Both the position numbers and the translations under genes were made by a program. Source: Chloroflexota bacterium (GTDB lineage: Bacteria > Chloroflexota > UBA11872 > VXOZ01). Taken from it: a stretch of 64,000 nucleotides of DNA. Every line of letters starts with the position of its first letter. Position 1 is the first letter of the stretch. This document shows, in pieces, positions 54,132 through 64,000 of the stretch. The DNA is taken from positions 65,136-129,135 of the forward strand of contig JAAXIC010000049.1 of the NCBI GenBank assembly GCA_012270555.1, written 5' to 3'. Under the pieces are notes generated by a model that was given only the letters and a program-made list of their open reading frames with translations, did no database searches and was not told the DNA's origin.

Positions 54132-55136
54132 ATGCCCACTCGCTACTCCTCAAGCATGCCACTTCGAGAAATCCTACAACGTGTAACCAACGCTCCCGCT
54201 TTGCAGTCATACTCCGCCTTATTGTCGCGGATTCCGACACCAACGGGTCTGCAAGGGACGGCCCTGTGTGTACTTCTCATGGCAGCCTGCGCCCAGACGG
54301 GCTCTGAACAGATGACGTTTGGGCGCACCATTCCGCCTGCCACAACCGTGCCGACACCATCTGTGCCCGCGCCCATACCCGCTGCGAGCGCTGCGCCAAC
54401 AGTTGCCGTACCCACGGCAACCCCTTACCCCACACCGGACCTCAGCGGGCTTCCCTATGAGGTTCTCGCCCAAGAGGTCGTGCGCGGCAGCCCGGACATA
54501 CCTGCCGTCGCGTTCACGCTCGACGGTGGCGCTATTGCCGCCTACACTCCCGAAATATTGGAGATATTGCGTGAGCACCAGGTACGCATCACGATCTTCA
54601 TTACCGGGCAGTTCGCCGAACGCCACCCTGAACTCGTCCTCGAGATGATCGACGACGGGCACGAAATCGGCAACCACTCGTACGCGCACCCTGAATTCAC
54701 GAAGCTGAGCGATGACTCCATCCGCGCGGAACTCACCCGCACAGAGGAAATCATAAAGGACGTAGCGGGAGTGAGCACCAAACCCTGGTTTCGCTTCCCC
54801 TATGGCGCGCGCAATCACCATGTCCGCCGTGTAGTAGCCCATGAAGGCTACCAGAGCATCTATTGGACAATCGACACCATTGACTGGCGGGATGACGCCA
54901 CACCTGCCTTGGTCAAGCAGCGCATCCGCGACCGCCTAGGGAATGGTGTCATCATACTCGCGCATCTCGGTAGCAGGCATACTGTGGAAGCGCTCCCAGA
55001 CATCTTGACTGAGCTCAGGGAGCAAGGCTATCAGATTGTAAAAGTCTCTGAGCTCTTGTATCCGCCGCCACAAATACAGCCAACTCCCACTATCGTCGTA
55101 GAGCCTACCCCCACCGTTGTGCTCTCCAGCCCTTGA
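54132..55136 (+). CDS. NodB-type polysaccharide deacetylase-like lipoprotein
   Basis: About 334 residues. An N-terminal lipoprotein signal (ALCVLLMAAC) and a Pro/Thr/Ala-rich linker lead to a NodB homology domain: FTLDGG (motif 1), HSYAHPEF (motif 2), RFPYGARN (motif 3) and VIILAHLGS (late His). In motif 1 (usually TFDDG) the second Asp, a metal ligand, is Gly here, while the two His ligands remain. Activity on N-acetyl sugars is thus uncertain. The start is not clear: no ribosome site marks 54132, and a TTG at 54102 or an ATG at 54156 is possible. A Pro-rich tail ends the protein. It lies just before the trp T-box. Confidence 0.82.
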   Translation: MPTRYSSSMPLREILQRVTNAPALQSYSALLSRIPTPTGLQGTALCVLLMAACAQTGSEQMTFGRTIPPATTVPTPSVPAPIPAASAAPTVAVPTATPYPTPDLSGLPYEVLAQEVVRGSPDIPAVAFTLDGGAIAAYTPEILEILREHQVRITIFITGQFAERHPELVLEMIDDGHEIGNHSYAHPEFTKLSDDSIRAELTRTEEIIKDVAGVSTKPWFRFPYGARNHHVRRVVAHEGYQSIYWTIDTIDWRDDATPALVKQRIRDRLGNGVIILAHLGSRHTVEALPDILTELREQGYQIVKVSELLYPPPQIQPTPTIVVEPTPTVVLSSP

Positions 55137-55182
55137 CAGCGTGCAGAGGCTGCCGTAGAATACAATTCACAATTGAATACGG

Positions 55183-55500
55183 AAAAGGCGACGATCAGGA
55201 AGAGTACGCTGCTAAGGCGGCCTCCAGAGAGCCGGGAAACGGTGGGATCCCGGTGGTGCGCGGTCAGCGGAATGGGCCTGGGAGCTGTGACCTGAAAGGT
55301 GGCTTGTGCGTAGGCGGGTATGCTGCCCGCACGTGCAGTTGCCGATTAGGCGTCAACGGAACCCCTACCGTAGACTTTGGGGCAAGCATGAAACCATGCA
55401 ATTGGGGAGTGCTTGAGGAAATTAAGCGGGCTGCGCATGCAGCCAAGAAGGGTGGCACCGCGAGACGTGTTCTCGTCCCTTTGGGGACGAGATTTTTGCT
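55183..55500 (+). promoter_or_regulatory. T-box riboswitch, tryptophan-specific
   Basis: Leader of the trp operon. Stem I shows GACGATCAGGAAGAGTACG, CAGAGAGCCGG and GGTGGG elements, then GGAATGGGCC, where TGG (55273-55275) is the likely specifier codon for Trp. The T-box itself, AAGGGTGGCACCGCG, is at 55448-55462. Its TGGC would pair with the GCCA end of uncharged tRNA-Trp, matching the G discriminator base of that tRNA. AAGGG can pair with CCCTT (55477-55481) to form the antiterminator. Uncharged tRNA-Trp should allow read-through into trpE. Confidence 0.93.
55471..55497 (+). terminator. T-box terminator of the trp operon
   Basis: A perfect 9-bp stem TCTCGTCCC/GGGACGAGA (55471-55479 and 55484-55492) with a four-base loop, followed by TTTTT. 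Its left arm overlaps the antiterminator pairing region, as required for T-box control. Confidence 0.92.
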
Positions 55501-55531: not shown

Positions 55532-57052
55532 ATGGCAGTAATACAAACCACGCCGGGTGCCGTATTTTCGGGTATTCAGCCGGACCTCAACGAAGTCCGC
55601 ACGCTGGCGGCGCAGGGTCTGACGGTACCCATTTCCCGCACCATTCCCGCAGACCTGGAAACGCCGGTCTCCGCCTACCTCAAGATCGCGCAAGGTGACT
55701 ACTCTTTCTTGCTCGAGAGCGTGCAAGGCAGCGAAAGTCTCGGACGCTACTCGTTCATCGGCACGAATGCTTCCAAGGTCATTCGCATGGACGAGGGCAC
55801 GGCAACCCTCACGCAGATTGGTGAGAGAGAAACGCGCACGTACGCCGGTCCACTGAAACTGCTGGAAGAGGAACTGGCCAAGACTAATCTCGCCGTGATG
55901 CCCGGTCTGCCGCGCTTTCAAGGCGGCGCCGTCGGCTATCTGAGCTACGACACCGTGCGCTACTTTGAGCCACGCGTGCCGCTGCCGGCGGAGAATGCGC
56001 TGCCGGTGCCGGAAGCGATCTTCATGTTTACCGATAACCTCATTATGTTCGACCACGTCAAGCACAGCCTTACCATCATTGCTTATGTCTCTCCCCACGG
56101 GGACGTGGCTGAGAACTATGACGTGGCAGTTGCAGCGATCGAGGATATCAATGCCAGGCTCCGAACTACCGTACCAACAGTGCGCGGCACGGGAAATCCC
56201 GGCGTGGCAACGCCAAACATGACCGAACCAGAGCACCACGAGATGGTGCGGGCCGCCAAAGAATACATCGCCGCGGGCGACATTATACAAGCCGTGCTGG
56301 GGCTGCGTTGGTCGCGCTCCTTGGGCGTGCACCCCTACTCGGTCTACCGCGCGCTGCGCATGATCAACCCCTCACCGTACATGTACTACTTGAACCTTGA
56401 GGACGTGCAAATCGTCGGCGCCTCGCCTGAGATGTTGGTACGGGTGGAAGGCTCCCATGTCACCACGCGGCCTATTGCCGGTACCCGCCGGCGCGGCAGC
56501 ACGCCGGAAGAAGACGCGGCCCTGGCCGAAGAACTCCTTGCCAGCGCGAAAGAACGCGCCGAACACATCATGCTCGTCGACCTGGGTCGGAACGATCTCG
56601 GCCGCGTGTGCCGCCCCGGCTCGGTCCACGTGCCCACCCTGATGGTGGTGGAAGAGTTCTCCCACGTGATGCACATCGTCTCTCAAGTAGAAGGGGAACT
56701 CCTGCCGGACAAGACGGCGTTCGACGCGCTGCGCTCGTGCTTCCCGGCGGGCACGCTTTCCGGCGCGCCCAAGGTGCGGGCCATGGAGATCATCTCCGAA
56801 CTCGAAGGTACTACGCGAGGACCGTATGGCGGCGCCGTCGGCTATTTCGATTATTCCGGCAACATGGACATGGCGATTACCATCCGCACCATGACCGTGC
56901 AAGACAACACAGCCTACATCCAAGCCGGTGGCGGCATCGTGGCGGATTCCGATCCCGAAGAGGAGTACGAAGAGGTGTGCAACAAGGCCGCGTCAACCAT
57001 GCGGGCCATTGACGTTGCGGAGGAGATGGAACGTGATCTTCATGCTGGATAA
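55532..57052 (+). CDS. trpE: Anthranilate synthase component I
   Basis: Makes anthranilate from chorismate using ammonia supplied by TrpG. 506 residues. The feedback site LLES (60-63) in YSFLLESVQGSESLGRYSFIG points to inhibition by tryptophan. The chorismate-binding domain includes PIAGTRRRG, HIMLVDLGRNDLGRV and FPAGTLSGAPKVRAM. First gene after the T-box. It overlaps trpG by 20 bases. Confidence 0.97.
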   Translation: MAVIQTTPGAVFSGIQPDLNEVRTLAAQGLTVPISRTIPADLETPVSAYLKIAQGDYSFLLESVQGSESLGRYSFIGTNASKVIRMDEGTATLTQIGERETRTYAGPLKLLEEELAKTNLAVMPGLPRFQGGAVGYLSYDTVRYFEPRVPLPAENALPVPEAIFMFTDNLIMFDHVKHSLTIIAYVSPHGDVAENYDVAVAAIEDINARLRTTVPTVRGTGNPGVATPNMTEPEHHEMVRAAKEYIAAGDIIQAVLGLRWSRSLGVHPYSVYRALRMINPSPYMYYLNLEDVQIVGASPEMLVRVEGSHVTTRPIAGTRRRGSTPEEDAALAEELLASAKERAEHIMLVDLGRNDLGRVCRPGSVHVPTLMVVEEFSHVMHIVSQVEGELLPDKTAFDALRSCFPAGTLSGAPKVRAMEIISELEGTTRGPYGGAVGYFDYSGNMDMAITIRTMTVQDNTAYIQAGGGIVADSDPEEEYEEVCNKAASTMRAIDVAEEMERDLHAG

Positions 57053-57653
57053 CTACGACTCGTTTACCTACAATCTGGTGCAGTACATGGGCGAGCTCGG
57101 CGCCGAGATGGAAGTAGCGCGCAATGATAAGACGACAGTCGAGGAAGTCATGGCTAGCCAGCCTGACGGGATCGTCGTCTCGCCGGGGCCGTGCACGCCT
57201 AACGAAGCCGGCATCTCGAACGACCTCATCGCCCAGGCCGCGGGCAAGATACCGCTGCTCGGCGTCTGCCTCGGCCACCAGTGCATCGGTCAGGTGTTTG
57301 GCGGCAACGTGATACGGGCGGAAACGCTCATGCACGGCAAGACGTCAATGATCCATCACCAGGACAGTGGCATTTTCGCCGGACTGGAGAACCCATTCGT
57401 GGCCACGCGTTACCATTCACTGATCATCGATCCGGAGAGCATGCCGTCGGTTCTCGACGTAACGGCACGGGCAGACGACGGCACGATCATGAGTGTGCGC
57501 CACAGGCAACATGCGATTTACGGCGTCCAATTCCATCCAGAATCAATCCTGACCACGGAAGGGAAGCGGCTACTCCAGAATTTTCTCAATATCGTCGAGC
57601 AGAATCGCACACAGGAAACGCAAGCGGCTGCCGCGCACAAGGGGGCAGAGTGA
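57033..57653 (+). CDS. trpG: Anthranilate synthase component II (glutamine amidotransferase)
   Basis: 206 residues. Class I amidotransferase: catalytic Cys in LGVCLGHQCIG, and His and Glu in GVQFHPESIL. The start is the GTG at 57033, giving the family-typical IFMLDNYDSFTYNLVQY. A GGAGGAGATGGA ribosome site lies inside the end of trpE, so translation is coupled. An ATG three codons later is an alternative. Confidence 0.95.
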   Translation: MIFMLDNYDSFTYNLVQYMGELGAEMEVARNDKTTVEEVMASQPDGIVVSPGPCTPNEAGISNDLIAQAAGKIPLLGVCLGHQCIGQVFGGNVIRAETLMHGKTSMIHHQDSGIFAGLENPFVATRYHSLIIDPESMPSVLDVTARADDGTIMSVRHRQHAIYGVQFHPESILTTEGKRLLQNFLNIVEQNRTQETQAAAAHKGAE

Positions 57654-58669
57654 TGATTGTTGAAGCGACCATCAAAGCTACTGAGGGCGCATCGCTTTCT
57701 CGTGATGAAGCGGCCCAAGTAATGACCGAGATCATGGATGCGGCGTGCACGCCGGCGCAGTTCGGCGCGTTCGTCACGGCGCTCCGCATTAAAGGAGAAT
57801 CCGCTGATGAAATCGCCGGATGCCTGGCCGTGATGCGCGACAAAGCGCTGCCGGTCACGGTCAGTCAGCCCGTGGCCGATACCTGCGGCACCGGCGGCGA
57901 CGGTGTCGGTACCTTCAATATTTCAACTGCCAATGCCATTGTCTTGGCGGCGGCAGGCCAGCCCGTAGCTAAGCACGGCAATCGCGCTATGAGCAGCGCC
58001 TGCGGCAGCGCCGACGTGCTGGAGGCGCTGGGTGTGCAAATCGAGCTGGGGCCGGACGCGGTGGCGCAGTGCATCGAGCAGGTCGGCATCGGCTTCATGT
58101 TCGCACAAGCCTACCATCCGGCGATGAAATTCGCCGCGCCGCTGCGCCGCGAAATCGGCATTCGTACGATCTTCAACATTCTCGGCCCGCTGACGAACCC
58201 CGCCGGAGCCGGCTATCGCGTGTTCGGTGTCGCTGACCCAAGTCTTGCGGACGACATTGCCCAGGCGCTGAGCGCGCTTGGTGTGCGCCGCGCGCTCGTC
58301 GTCCACGGCGAGGCCGACGGTGTTGACGAAATCTCCATTAGCGGCCCCACGTCGGTAACCGAGTGGGACGGCAGCAGTGTAAAGAGCTACCATCTGGAGC
58401 CGAAGGACTTTGGCTTGGACGAGGCGCCAGTGAGCGAAATTGCCGGCGGCTCGGTGGAGGAGAATGCGCAATACGTGCGCGACGTGCTGGCCGGCAAGCC
58501 GGGCCCGCGCCGCGACGTGGTGGTCATGAATGCCGCTGCCGGCCTCGTGGTCAGCGGCAGAGCGAGCGACTGGAAAGAAGGCGCGGCGCAAGCCGCCGCC
58601 GCTATCGACAACGGCCAGGCCGCCGCTAAACTGGAAGCCTTTGCAAGCCTGAGTCAGAGTCTTGCCTGA
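57653..58669 (+). CDS. trpD: Anthranilate phosphoribosyltransferase
   Basis: 338 residues. Substrate sites: DTCGTGGDGVGTFNISTA (PRPP binding), KHGNRAMSS and the ILGPLTNPA segment. The ATG overlaps the trpG stop by one base (TGATG). An open frame running back to 57281 belongs to trpG's other frame. It joins anthranilate and PRPP. Confidence 0.97.
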   Translation: MIVEATIKATEGASLSRDEAAQVMTEIMDAACTPAQFGAFVTALRIKGESADEIAGCLAVMRDKALPVTVSQPVADTCGTGGDGVGTFNISTANAIVLAAAGQPVAKHGNRAMSSACGSADVLEALGVQIELGPDAVAQCIEQVGIGFMFAQAYHPAMKFAAPLRREIGIRTIFNILGPLTNPAGAGYRVFGVADPSLADDIAQALSALGVRRALVVHGEADGVDEISISGPTSVTEWDGSSVKSYHLEPKDFGLDEAPVSEIAGGSVEENAQYVRDVLAGKPGPRRDVVVMNAAAGLVVSGRASDWKEGAAQAAAAIDNGQAAAKLEAFASLSQSLA

Positions 58670-58715
58670 TACCGTATCCGAATGGATTTACCAGTAAACA
58701 AGGCCCTGCATTTAT

Positions 58716-58749
58716 CCCCTCTCCCTGAGGGAGAGGGTTAGGGTGAGGG
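58716..58749 (+). repeat. Family-B palindromic repeat inside the trp operon
   Basis: CCCCTCTCCCTGAGGGAGAG then GGTTAGGGTGAGGG, in the 129-base gap between trpD and trpC. A strong hairpin here may change the relative amounts of mRNA upstream and downstream. Confidence 0.8.
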
Positions 58750-58798
58750 TGAAGCAACCAGAAAAGTCTGAGTTGAAGGGGTACTTGGAACCACACAC

Positions 58799-59665
58799 AT
58801 GATTCTCGATACCATCCTGCAGCATAAAGAACGTGAGTTGGCGGAGCGTCAAGCCGCAGTGCCGCTGCGCGCTCTGGAGCAGAGAGCAGAAGCAATGGGC
58901 CCGCCGCGCGATTTCGCGGCGGCATTGCGTCAAGACGGCATTCGGCTGATCGCCGAGATCAAGCGAGCGTCGCCATCCAAAGGCGTTTTTGCGCCTGATC
59001 TTGATCCGCCGGTGCTGGCACAGATATATGCGGACAACGGCGCTAGTGCCCTTTCGGTACTTACGGACGAGCGGTTCTTCCAGGGTTCGCTTGCCGACCT
59101 CCAAGCCGCGCGCGCTGCCGTGAACATTCCTGCATTGCGCAAGGACTTCACTACCGACGAGTACCACATCGTCGAAGCCCGTGCCGCGGGCGCCGACGCG
59201 GTGCTCCTCATCGTTGCCGCCCTGCCGCAGCCCCGCTTGCGGGCGCTGCTCCGCTGCGCTCAGGAATGGGACATGGCCGCCATCGTGGAAGTGCATACGG
59301 CGGAGGAAACCGCTCTAGCCTTGGAGATAGACGCTGAGATCATTGGCATCAACAACCGCAACCTACATACCTTCGAAACCACATTGGAAACGACTGCCGC
59401 ACTCCGCGAGATCATCCCAACCGACCACTTGGTAGTCAGCGAGAGCGGCATCCATACAACCGCCGATGTGGCAAAGCTCCACGCCTGGAACGTAGACGCT
59501 ATGTTGATTGGCGAAGCATTGGTGACTGCACCGGACACGGCAGCCAAAGTTGCGTCACTTGTTGCTGCCGCAGAATTGCCGACGGTTGATTCCGCTTCCA
59601 GCGATAGCGATTCACCCTCCGTCATTCCGGCGCAGGCCGGAATCCAGAGTGAGGCAACCGAATGA
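58799..59665 (+). CDS. trpC: Indole-3-glycerol phosphate synthase with repeat-encoded C-terminal tail
   Basis: 288 residues, about 20 longer than usual. The barrel shows IAEIKRASPSKGV, ALSVLTDERFFQGS, PALRKDFTTDEYHI, AIVEVHTAEE, IGINNRNLHTFETTLE and VSESGIHT with normal catalytic lysines and glutamates. After the usual end (near residue 262) comes a tail, ASSDSDSPSVIPAQAGIQ, whose last part is encoded by a palindromic repeat (59620-59647). The tail has no place in the barrel. The stop overlaps the trpF start (ATGA). Confidence 0.95.
   Translation: MILDTILQHKERELAERQAAVPLRALEQRAEAMGPPRDFAAALRQDGIRLIAEIKRASPSKGVFAPDLDPPVLAQIYADNGASALSVLTDERFFQGSLADLQAARAAVNIPALRKDFTTDEYHIVEARAAGADAVLLIVAALPQPRLRALLRCAQEWDMAAIVEVHTAEETALALEIDAEIIGINNRNLHTFETTLETTAALREIIPTDHLVVSESGIHTTADVAKLHAWNVDAMLIGEALVTAPDTAAKVASLVAAAELPTVDSASSDSDSPSVIPAQAGIQSEATE
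59620..59647. repeat. Palindromic repeat encoding VIPAQAGIQ inside trpC
   Basis: CGTCATTCCGGCGCAGGCCG then GAATCCAG, with the perfect stem ATTCCGGC/GCCGGAAT around a four-base loop. It resembles the widespread GTCATTCCCGCGAAAGCGGG-type intergenic repeat. In the trpC frame it yields the peptide VIPAQAGIQ. Confidence 0.8.
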
Positions 59666-60339
59666 AATCGTCCGCAGACTCCCCTGACGCCAACAATCGC
59701 ATAGCGCAAGGCTTCGCTGCGCCCAAAGTGAAAATCGACGGCATCATGGCACTGGCCGACGCGCGCGCTGCGGTGGCGCATGGCGCGGACTTTATCGGTT
59801 TTGTGTTTGTCAAGGGTAGACGTCGATGCATGACCATGGACGACACGCGCGACATCATTCGCAGTCTTGGCTCCACATGTCCGCCGGCAGTGGGTCTCTT
59901 TGTTAACGAGGATGCCGCGACCGTGCGCCATGTTGTAGCGGAATGCGGACTTCAGTACGTGCAGTTGTGCGGAGCGGAGACGCCGGACTACTGCACCGAG
60001 TTAGGGCTACTGCATTGGAAAGTTATAAACTTGCATTCCGCCGACGACTACGCACGCATGCCCCCTTACGTGGAGGCCGCGGGATTTGTGCTGGAGGGCG
60101 CCGACAATGGGCCCGGCGGCACCGGCCAGACCTGGGATTGGAGTCTGGCAAGCGCCGCGCCGCGCGACCGCCCATTCTTTATCGCAGGGGGGCTTACCCC
60201 TGACAATGTACGTTCTGCCGTTGCCCAGGTGCAGCCCTGGGGAGTGGACGTCAGCAGCGGTGTTGAGACAAATGGCAAGAAAGACCCCGACAAGATTGCC
60301 GCATTCATCCACCACGCGAGAGATGCCTCGTTACCGTGA
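59662..60339 (+). CDS. trpF: Phosphoribosylanthranilate isomerase-like protein with changed catalytic residues
   Basis: 225 residues. Placement, length and several motifs fit TrpF: GADFIGFVF, AVGLFVNED, AGGLTPDNV and DVSSGVETN. The usual KICGIT, whose Cys is the catalytic base, reads KIDGIM (Asp). LLD before the GGxGxTFDW loop, whose Asp is the catalytic acid, reads VLE before GPGGTGQTWDW (Glu). QLHG reads QLCG. The chain is intact and sits in the operon, so it is not a decayed gene; either it works with swapped acid/base groups or another enzyme does this step. The ATG overlaps the trpC stop. Confidence 0.85.
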   Translation: MKSSADSPDANNRIAQGFAAPKVKIDGIMALADARAAVAHGADFIGFVFVKGRRRCMTMDDTRDIIRSLGSTCPPAVGLFVNEDAATVRHVVAECGLQYVQLCGAETPDYCTELGLLHWKVINLHSADDYARMPPYVEAAGFVLEGADNGPGGTGQTWDWSLASAAPRDRPFFIAGGLTPDNVRSAVAQVQPWGVDVSSGVETNGKKDPDKIAAFIHHARDASLP

Positions 60340-60350
60340 GAGGAAGCACA

Positions 60351-60560
60351 ATGAAACGGCTTGAAGAGTTGGTTCAGGAGTTGCCGCCGGAGTTGCAGCA
60401 GGAAGTCTACGACTTTGCACGCTTTCTGCTGGAAACGAAAGCCAAGCCGCGCCGCAAGGGAAAGCTGCGCCTCACCTGGGCCGGAGCGCTCGCCGAGTAT
60501 CGTGACCAGTACACTTCTCTTGATCTGCAACGCAAGGCGCTCGAATGGTGGGGAGACTGA
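60351..60560 (+). CDS. DUF2281 family antitoxin-like protein
   Basis: 69 residues. The N-terminal helix pair RLEELVQELPPELQQEVYDFARFLLE is the DUF2281 signature, found in partners of VapC-type toxins. The basic middle (KAKPRRKGKLRL) may bind the toxin or DNA. The ATG at 60351 follows GAGGAAG and is 11 bases after trpF. The stop overlaps the toxin start (TGATG). No promoter of its own is visible. Confidence 0.85.
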   Translation: MKRLEELVQELPPELQQEVYDFARFLLETKAKPRRKGKLRLTWAGALAEYRDQYTSLDLQRKALEWWGD

Positions 60561-60964
60561 TGTACCTTGTCGATTCAAATGTATGGCTAGAACTCTTGCT
60601 AAACCAGGAAAGAGCAGAAGAAGTTCGAGATTTCTTTGGCACAATGGAGCCGAATCTACTGGCACTGACAGATTTTACTCTTTATTCGCTCGGTATCATT
60701 CTAACGCGGCTTGGAAAGGACCAGGCGTTCTCTGACTTTACTGTAGACACGCTTGAACGGGGAGAAGTCACCAGTCTTCGGCTAAACATTGCTGACATGC
60801 GAGATCTGCTGGCCGTGGGACAACAGTTTCGACTTGATTTTGACGATGCCTATCAATACCTCGCCGCTGAGAAACACGGCTTCGTGCTCGTGAGTTTTGA
60901 TTCGGATTTTGATCGAACAGATCGTGGAAGAAAGACTCCTAAGCAGATCATCACAGAATTGTAA
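60560..60964 (+). CDS. PIN-domain (VapC-like) ribonuclease toxin
   Basis: 134 residues. The acidic PIN residues are visible as [10 protein letters not shown] (Asp, Asn and Glu), [16 protein letters not shown] (Asp) and VSFDSDFDR (Asp). It would be a metal-dependent RNase restrained by the DUF2281 protein encoded directly before it. The ATG at 60560 overlaps that gene's stop by one base. The pair lies inside the trp operon, 20 bases before trpS. Confidence 0.88.
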
Positions 60965-60983: not shown

Positions 60984-62054
60984 GTGGCAAGACCACCCCA
61001 AAAACGCATTCTCACCGGCATGCGCACCACCGGCGCCGCGCATCTCGGTCACTACGCCGGCGCGCTGCGCAACTGGGTCGAAATGCAGGGCGAGTACGAG
61101 TGTTACTTCCTGCTCGCCGACGTGCAGGCCTTCAGCACGCACTTCGACGATCCGCAGCGCATCGTAGAGTCAGTGCACGAAATGGTGCTCGACTGGTTGG
61201 CGGTTGGGCTCAATCCGACGAAACAGTCGAACATTCACTTTGTGTTGCAGAGTCAGATACAGGATCTGACGGAACTGACGACCTACTTCTCCATGCTCAC
61301 GCCGATGGCCTACGTGGAACGCAATCCCACCATCAAGAACGAACGCGCGCAGTATGGCGAGCGTGCGGGCAATCTCGGCTTCTACAACTACCCGGTATCC
61401 CAGGCCGCCGACGTCCTGCTCTTCACGCCGCCGCCGCCGCACGTCGACGGTGACGAACTCTGCGTACCGGTGGGTGAAGACCAACTGCCTCTGCTCGAAC
61501 TCACCAACGACATCGCGGGCTGGTTCAACCGCACGTACGACCGCGTCTTTCTGGAGTGCACGCACCGCTTGAGCGAGGTGCCGCGCCTCATGGGCACCGA
61601 CGGCCAAGCCAAGATGAGCAAGAGCCTGGGGAACGTAATCCTCCTCAGCGACGACGCGGACACGGTGCAGAAGAAAGTCATGAGCATGTACACCGACCCC
61701 ACACGGCTGCGCGCCACGGATCCCGGCCACGTGGAAGGCAACCCGGTATTCATGTACCACGACGCCTTCAACCCGGACGTTGCTGAAGTAGACGAATTGA
61801 AAGACCGCTACCGCAAGGGCCGCGTCGGCGACGTGGAGGTCAAGCGGCGGCTCTTCACTGCACTCAACGCAATGCTGGACCCCATTAGAGAACGTCGTGA
61901 AGCGTTTGCTAACGACCCCGACATTGTGCAGGAAGTCTTGCGCAGCGGCATCGAGCAAACGCGCGCCGTGGGCGGCGAAACCATGGACCACGTCCGCGCC
62001 GCCATGTATATAGACTATGCAAACCTGCTGGCGACACCGACGGCAACCGGTTAG
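60984..62054 (+). CDS. trpS: Tryptophanyl-tRNA synthetase
   Basis: 356 residues. Class I signature sequences: [12 protein letters not shown] (HIGH type) and AKMSKSLGN (KMSKS). The middle has QAADVLLF and [15 protein letters not shown], which contribute to the Trp pocket. The GTG at 60984 follows AAGGAAAGAGG. Its presence in the operon ties tRNA-Trp charging to the tRNA-Trp sensing T-box upstream. Confidence 0.95.
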
Positions 62055-62142: not shown

Positions 62143-63342
62143 ATGGCTACATCACCATCACTCACCGTACGGGGACAATTCGGTGACTACGGCGGGCGTT
62201 ACGTGCCGGAGACCGTGATTCCGGCGCTGGAAGAATTGGAAGAAGCCTACGCCGGCCTTGCCGATGACACCGCGTTTCAAGACGAACTCGATGTTCTGTT
62301 GGACCGCTATGTAGGTCGCCCCACGCCCATTTACCACGCGGCCCGCCTGAGCGCAGAAATCGGCGGCGCGCAGATGTATCTCAAGCGGGAAGACCTGGCG
62401 CACACCGGCGCACACAAGATCAACAATGCCCTCGGCCAGGCGTTGCTCGCAAAGCGCATCGGGCGCACCCGCATCATCGCCGAGACTGGCGCGGGGCAGC
62501 ACGGCGTCGCCACCGCTGCCGCGTGCGCCATGCTCGGTCTGGAGTGCATCGTCTACATGGGCGAGGTTGACGTGCACCGCCAGACGCTCAACGTCTTTCG
62601 CATGAAGCTGCTCGGCGCCACCGTAATACCGGTAATGTCCGGCAGCCGCACGCTCAAGGATGCCATCAACGAGACCATTCGCGACTGGGTCACCAACGTT
62701 GAGACCACCCATTATATCATCGGCTCCGTGGTGGGGCCGCACCCGTATCCCACCATCGTGCGCGACCTCCAGAGCATCATCGGCAGGGAGGCCCGCGAGC
62801 AGTGCTTGGCGCAGTTTGGGCGCTTGCCTGATGTAGTGGTGGCCTGCGTGGGCGGCGGCAGCAACGCCATTGGCATCTTCCATCCCTTTGTAGACGACAC
62901 AGAAGTGCGCCTGGTGGGTGTGGAAGCCGCCGGGCACGGCATCGAGAGCGGCGAGCACGCCGCCACGCTGGTGGCCGGCACGCCCGGCACCCTCCACGGC
63001 GCGAAGAGCTACTTGCTGCAAGACGACGAGGGCCAGATCTACGAGCCACATAGCATCTCCGCCGGACTGGACTACCCCGGCGTCGGCCCCGAACACAGTT
63101 ACTTGAAAGACCTGGGGCGGGCGGAGTATGTGGGCGTGACGGACGAGCAGGCGCTGGAAGGCTTCCAGCATCTTTGTCGAACTGAGGGCATCATACCTGC
63201 CTTGGAGCCCGCACACGCCATGTACCATGCCGCGCAATTGGCGAGTGCACTCCCGCAGGATCAGATTGTGCTGATCAACCTCTCCGGCCGGGGTGACAAA
63301 GACATGACCATCGTCGCCGAGGGATTGGGGGTGGAGCTGTGA
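62143..63342 (+). CDS. trpB: Tryptophan synthase beta chain
   Basis: 399 residues, major TrpB1 type. The PLP lysine is in [13 protein letters not shown], the phosphate loop in [10 protein letters not shown], and a Ser near the C-terminus in NLSGRGDKD. It starts [19 protein letters not shown] as usual. GGAGCGCTTGA precedes the ATG. It couples with TrpA, whose start overlaps its stop. Confidence 0.97.
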
Positions 63343-64000
63343 GCGGACCAATTCAAGGACACCGCCTCGCTGCAACCTTCGCCCAAACGAAAGCGGAGAA
63401 CCGCGCAGCGCTCATCACGTTTGCCACCGTTGGGTATCCCACACCGGCGGATACCGCCGACGTCGTGCGCGCGCTCCTGGCAGGCGGTTCGGACGTCGTC
63501 GAACTCGGCATACCCTTCTCCGATCCACTCGCCGATGGCGCGACGATACAGCACGCGTCGCAGATTGCGCTGGAGCAAGGCACCACGCTCAAGATGGCTT
63601 TCAACCTGGTGCGCGACCTGCGGTCCGAGGGTGTTGAGACTCCGCTCGTCTTCATGGGTTATTACAACCCCTTCCTGCACTACGGACTGGAACGGGTCGT
63701 GAAAGAAGCGGCCGAAATAGGCCTCGACGGCTTCATCGTGCCAGACCTGCCGCCGGAGGAAGGACAGGAATTCGGCCGCCTTGCTAGGGCCCACGACCTC
63801 GACCTGATACCGCTCCTGGCGCCCACCAGCACCGAATCGCGTATCCAGGCCAACGTCCAGGCCGGCAGCGGCTTTGTCTACTGTGTCTCTCTCATCGGCG
63901 TGACCGGCGCGCGCGAGCAACTCTCCGCCACGTTGCCGGAATTCCTAGGCCGCGTGCGGAAACACACCGACTTGCCCTTGGCAGTAGGCTTTGGCGTGTC
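63339..64000 (+). CDS. trpA: Tryptophan synthase alpha chain (3' truncated)
   Basis: 220 residues are visible, to the window edge. The catalytic Glu is in [18 protein letters not shown] and the Asp in [11 protein letters not shown]. The start is the GTG at 63339, overlapping the trpB stop (GTGA). The last visible part, [21 protein letters not shown], fits the usual helix before the C-terminal glycine loops. Confidence 0.95.

Follow-up and report, generated by a model that had tools for sequence, protein, structure and literature searches.

A VapBC-like DUF2281-PIN gene pair in a T-box tryptophan operon of Chloroflexota, probably a captured and eroding passenger

The tryptophan operon examined here carries a predicted toxin-antitoxin gene pair between trpF and trpS. 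The pair is probably a low-GC cassette that was captured in the ancestor of the genus, or earlier, and that now persists as an eroding passenger whose tryptophan-linked expression is incidental. The evidence base for this reading is five informative genomes of the genus, in metagenome-derived assemblies.

A gene pair within a T-box transcription unit

The window, the whole 64,000-nucleotide stretch of DNA that was analysed, comes from a metagenome-assembled genome of 3.18 Mb in 56 contigs (G000; other genomes of the genus are G001 to G005). On its plus strand lie, in order, a T-box, trpE, trpG, trpD, trpC, trpF, a DUF2281 gene, a PIN gene, trpS, trpB and trpA:

55133-55161, plus strand: sigma-70-like promoter, TTGACA-17-TAGAAT, matching 11 of 12 consensus positions, directly 5' of the T-box
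55182-55483, plus strand: T-box leader RNA (Rfam RF00230, 101.7 bits against a gathering score of 93), also found in G001, G002 and G003
55273-55275, plus strand: probable specifier codon UGG (Trp) in the specifier loop GAA-UGG-GCC, kept in G000-G003, with the register inferred from the trp context
55453-55456, plus strand: UGGC bulge of the T-box, able to pair with the GCCA 3' end of tRNA-Trp
55471-55492, plus strand: strong leader terminator hairpin of 9 pairs followed by a T run, TTTTTGCTTT
55532-60339, plus strand: trpE, trpG, trpD, trpC and trpF (Pfam matches), the upstream genes of the T-box transcription unit
60351-60560, plus strand: DUF2281 antitoxin-like gene, 69 aa (PF10047, E=5.5e-17, above the Pfam cut-off), at a site also occupied in G001-G004
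60560-60964, plus strand: PIN-domain toxin-like gene, 134 aa (PF01850, E=2.8e-14, above the Pfam cut-off), present in G001 and G002 but not in G003 or G004
60984-62054, plus strand: trpS, tryptophanyl-tRNA synthetase (PF00579, E=7.1e-52), with the start codon GTG
62143-64000, plus strand: trpB (PF00291) and trpA, the latter assigned from its ORF translation and position and extending beyond the window end

The promoter hexamers are identical and have the same placement in G001, G002 and G003. The G004 contig stops within the operon, and the comparison of promoter and T-box covers G000-G003. The genome's own tRNA-Trp, with anticodon CCA and the 3' end GCCA, fits both the T-box specifier and the bulge.

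The genes at the junction are closely packed. The trpF stop codon occupies 60337-60339, and the DUF2281 gene, preceded by the ribosome-binding site AGAGGAAG, starts 11 bases downstream. The antitoxin TGA stop and the PIN ATG start share one base (TGATG), and the gap from the PIN stop to the trpS GTG at 60984 is 19 bases. A sequence-only reading of this DNA had placed the pair 11 bases after trpF and 20 before trpS; its gene coordinates, the tight spacing and the first figure stand, and the second is corrected by one base.

A consensus scan of the plus strand from 58632 to trpS found zero sigma-70 consensus sites matching at least 9 of 12 positions, in keeping with the earlier remark that the pair has no visible promoter of its own. 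No convincing terminator was found on the plus strand of the trpF-trpS interval, where the sole candidate, at 60875-60892, is a weak hairpin such as chance would produce. Since no convincing promoter or terminator separates trpF from trpS, co-transcription under the T-box is the default reading. Control of the DUF2281-PIN pair by the T-box and tRNA-Trp, as part of the trp operon, is well supported by these sequence features. With promoter, T-box and terminator all preceding trpE, the pair very probably belongs to a single transcription unit, as was anticipated when its expression was proposed to follow the T-box, and its Trp-linked expression is probably real.

Two repeat-like features were noted among the upstream genes. 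The 3' end of trpC (window 59620-59650) contains an interspersed-repeat-like stretch with the translation SVIPAQAGIQ, and a similar stretch occurs in G003; the trpD-trpC spacer (window 58715-58750) holds a GGGAGAGGG-type palindrome.

Identity of the DUF2281-PIN module

Domain matches and gene order identify the pair as a DUF2281-PIN module, a VapBC-like type II toxin-antitoxin system with predicted toxin and antitoxin roles. The scan of a PIN alignment against 84,980 species genomes recovered at least 80 loci in many bacterial phyla and several archaea, and identity to the PIN protein outside the genus is 45-64% among the matches listed. A DUF2281 partner lies directly upstream in 77 of the 80 PIN homologues listed, and the other three begin at contig edges. 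Each of the 54 DUF2281 proteins that were scanned has a PF10047 match, and a second domain does not recur consistently among them. Judged from these loci, DUF2281-PIN is a widespread, well-bounded two-gene module in Bacteria and Archaea. The VapBC-like identity proposed at first sight is thereby upheld: both Pfam matches exceed their cut-offs, the genes overlap by one base, the toxin has a PIN fold, and DUF2281 precedes PIN in nearly all the homologues listed. A lone DUF2281 antitoxin of the same kind, with no PIN gene downstream and an unrelated ORF adjoining, was seen in another genome of the phylum (L057:374-604).

AlphaFold models the window PIN protein very confidently (pLDDT 97), and among its nearest solved folds in the PDB, VapC toxins and further PIN proteins predominate (best E=6.6e-06, TM-score 0.79). 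For the antitoxin, model confidence is low (pLDDT 72). The pair shares the PIN fold, its nearest solved structures and the antitoxin-toxin order with VapBC systems such as Mycobacterium VapC, FitAB and Shigella VapBC. However, it falls short of the cut-offs of the curated NCBIfam models, with 27 bits for VapB (cut-off 60) and 15.9 bits for VapC (cut-off 73.6), it has Ser in place of the catalytic Glu, and no DNA-binding domain is recognised in the antitoxin by Pfam. Because the active site is unusual and the curated cut-offs are not reached, the pair is called VapBC-like rather than VapBC.

Comparable systems have been characterized in Synechocystis sp. PCC 6803, where the pairs ssl2138/sll1092 and ssr8013/slr8014 join the same two families, DUF2281 (COG5559) and PIN, with the antitoxin gene first (PMC4963859). 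These toxins arrest the growth of E. coli, their partners relieve the arrest, and Slr8014 degrades lpp mRNA (PMC4963859). Unlike the window pair, the Synechocystis pairs are described neither as T-box-controlled nor as members of an amino acid operon (PMC4963859). Other origins and roles were also considered and set aside: the pair has no plasmid match and no PADLOC match to an anti-phage system, and at E<=0.001 the PIN protein matches no viral fold.

The PIN active site

Residues D5, N7, E11, D93, D96, Y98, S112, D114, F117 and P127 are invariant across 76 PIN homologues. The position of the canonical second catalytic acid, a Glu, corresponds by alignment reading to Ser43, and Ser occupies it in 73 of the 76. 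Five residues before Ser43, position 38 is acidic in 75 of the 76 homologues (D in 59, E in 16). In the secondary structure of the model, D38 lies at the start of the helix that follows the second strand, near the expected place of the missing Glu, and it may take over the role of that residue. A PIN subfamily with a shifted acidic residue, spread over Bacteria and Archaea, deserves structural and biochemical study.

Presence and loss of the toxin within the genus

The genus sample comprises six genomes, of which five (G000-G004) are informative; G005, at 69% completeness and with trpF and trpS undetectable, was left out. Examination of the trpF-trpS junction in relatives had been set as a check on whether the pair is conserved, and it proved informative: the DUF2281 gene lies between trpF and trpS in all five genomes, and the PIN gene accompanies it in three (G000, G001 and G002). 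Recurrence of the pair at an identical junction in G001 and G002 speaks against a chance arrangement. The PIN gene is absent from the trp site of G003 and G004, and no homologue of the window PIN was found elsewhere in these two genomes.

The two toxin-less junctions differ from one another. The toxin gene of G004 is replaced by 503 bp of other DNA with a 3' remnant, a 41-bp stretch that matches G001 at 83% identity (E=0.007) and covers the toxin end and the trpS leader; the translated comparison of this remnant with G001 includes KIPKQVIARF followed by the stop. G003 instead has 948 bp of tandem-repeat-rich DNA directly after the antitoxin stop, in which no toxin-gene remnant was found; toxin loss is inferred for this genome because an antitoxin of this kind is constantly paired with PIN elsewhere. 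In a tree, G004 clusters with G000, separate from G003. Since the replacement DNAs and junctions differ and G004 groups with G000 rather than with G003, the toxin appears to have been lost at least twice. The congeners are probably all metagenome-assembled, so that repeat-related misassembly at these two junctions is conceivable, although both lie within contigs.

Erosion of the toxin seems to extend beyond the genus. A single in-frame stop interrupts 5 of the 80 listed toxin genes while the antitoxin stays open (L094, L101, L144, L146 and L161), and on this count toxin loss seems common in the DUF2281-PIN family. For L101 (Thermus brockianus) and L144 (a deltaproteobacterial MAG), the stop is a TAG at the same conserved Gln16 codon.

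The PIN gene has a GC3 of 0.44 against 0.66-0.79 in the trp genes, a composition that fits a foreign origin. A recent insertion in this strain only is ruled out by the same junction in G001 and G002 and by the antitoxin in G003 and G004. The initial suggestion that the pair may just be a recent insertion is therefore half right: a passenger fits better than a functional circuit, and its arrival dates to the genus ancestor or before.

T-box trp operons in the class

Other genomes of the class carry a T-box upstream of trpE and lack the pair. The T-box match exceeds the gathering score in G021; in G022, G012, G007, G009 and G016 matches at E<=6.3e-11, below the gathering score, precede trpE. The T-box trp arrangement is thus general in the class and would predate the arrival of the pair. 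In other families of the class the pair was not found in trp operons, and no DUF2281 protein was found outside the genus among 41 class genomes, which rules out the pair as a general part of the trp operon of the class. A T-box upstream of trpE, as in the window operon, was already known in Chloroflexi from Dehalococcoides (PMC2494555). The window operon differs in holding a toxin-antitoxin pair, of which no report within a T-box trp operon was found in the open-licence full-text literature.

At the trpF-trpB junction of their T-box trp operons, two further families in the class carry a gene for a putative lipoprotein of about 340-390 aa, which has no Pfam match:

L174:7740-8765, plus strand: putative lipoprotein gene at the trpF-trpB junction, other family of the class
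L177:4013-5197, minus strand: putative lipoprotein gene at the trpF-trpB junction, other family of the class

Because these two families hold an additional gene there, the trp junction seems to acquire extra genes repeatedly.

Selection and recombination

Both genes are constrained where they are present. Pairwise omega is 0.04-0.09 for the antitoxin, with the near-identical G001-G002 pair left out, and about 0.15 for the toxin; given these low values, the pair is not pure junk. Over a tract of about 1.1 kb spanning the trpF end, the pair and the trpS start, the otherwise diverged G001 and G002 are 97-100% identical (L028:6990-8030 against the corresponding part of L029), and upstream of this tract their trpF sequences are about 65-83% identical. 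This pattern points to recent interspecies homologous recombination across the pair. The exchanged tract could reflect selection for the pair, but it is not proof of such selection because other mosaic patches occur in the operon.

Origin and fate of the pair

In the most probable history, a DUF2281-PIN module would have been captured, in the genus ancestor or earlier, by a trp operon already controlled by a T-box, and the pair would have been transcribed as part of that operon ever since. When tRNA-Trp is charged, the leader would terminate and the whole unit would stay low; when it is uncharged, read-through would raise the trp enzymes, the antitoxin, the toxin and TrpS together. The antitoxin would be made first and be translationally coupled to the toxin, holding the PIN RNase inactive, and free toxin would arise only upon antitoxin degradation. 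With this order of synthesis and the coupling through the overlapping start, the toxin should stay neutralised, although a very severe lack of Trp might tip the balance between the two. Trp-responsive expression would then be a consequence of location rather than a selected function, and the toxin would be dispensable.

The foremost alternative, which is unlikely, is an adaptive circuit in which the PIN RNase answers uncharged tRNA-Trp through the T-box, so that on tryptophan starvation translation is slowed or a specific tRNA is cut. Several observations are consistent with it. The T-box unit includes the pair, purifying selection acts on each gene where it is present, and Mycobacterium tuberculosis has VapC toxins that cut tRNA-Trp (PMC6118392). 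Moreover, Trp accounts for 3 of 69 antitoxin residues, two of them just before the stop, and for 1 of 134 toxin residues, and Trp shortage could thus reduce the antitoxin more than the toxin. However, the overlapping start couples toxin synthesis to antitoxin synthesis, and Trp43 and Trp66 are invariant in 54 antitoxins that are mostly distant from trp genes. As these residues are family-wide, they did not arise for the trp operon, and a Trp-rich antitoxin as an adaptation to that operon is ruled out.

The genomic context of the module elsewhere argues in the same direction. Among the matches listed, 79 loci lie outside the genus, and a trp operon surrounds the pair in none of them; a distant trpB-like match (33% identity) lies about 2.6 kb downstream of the module in L103. 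Among the outside loci, 14 with a closely spaced upstream neighbour gave no Rfam match. With the trp setting confined to congeneric loci among these matches, an association with trp genes or T-boxes elsewhere is ruled out for the module. Within the genus, the toxin is missing from two of five congeners, and since the toxin is the dispensable part, a selected circuit from starvation to RNase is unsupported. The link between starvation and an RNase, which the sequence-only reading had put forward, is accordingly not supported as a selected feature: the toxin was lost at least twice in five lineages, the trp setting is lacking at the outside loci listed, and T-box trp operons in other families do without the pair.

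A second, rather improbable account has the antitoxin acquiring an independent function, perhaps as a small regulator or as an anti-toxin against incoming PIN genes, for which the operon keeps it while the toxin is shed. The antitoxin is intact in G003 and G004, which have no cognate PIN in the genome, and lone DUF2281 proteins of the same kind exist elsewhere (L057). Its private changes, counted as nonsynonymous to synonymous, are 13:12 in G003 and 5:10 in G004, below the neutral expectation of 2.7:1, and the C-terminal half is almost unchanged in G003. These branch counts suggest constraint on the orphan antitoxins, but the numbers are small and recent toxin losses would yield the same counts. 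Furthermore, the G004 antitoxin is altered at conserved positions (F25N and E10K).

More doubtful still is the view of the pair as a toxin-antitoxin RNase under an amino-acid-specific T-box, in which uncharged tRNA would raise enzymes, synthetase and a conditional RNase from one transcript and the Trp-rich antitoxin would serve as a second Trp sensor at translation. Least probable of all is a constitutive or autoregulated promoter of the pair's own inside trpF, with the T-box of little effect: own promoters are common among toxin-antitoxin pairs, and 25 of 77 listed pairs follow an oppositely oriented gene by rough gene calls, so that such copies must have one, but the plus-strand scan for sigma-70 consensus sites came back empty, the 11-base gap is too short for a promoter, which would have to lie inside trpF, and the antitoxin has no recognised DNA-binding domain.

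Significance

If transcription of the pair follows the T-box, the locus would offer a natural example of a toxin-antitoxin module controlled by a tRNA-sensing riboswitch, a case of which no report was found in the open-licence literature. The locus also provides a comparative series at one site, with the pair in three species, the antitoxin alone in two, and neither gene in other families that have the T-box operon. This series can be used to ask how essential operons capture modules and why antitoxins outlive their toxins.
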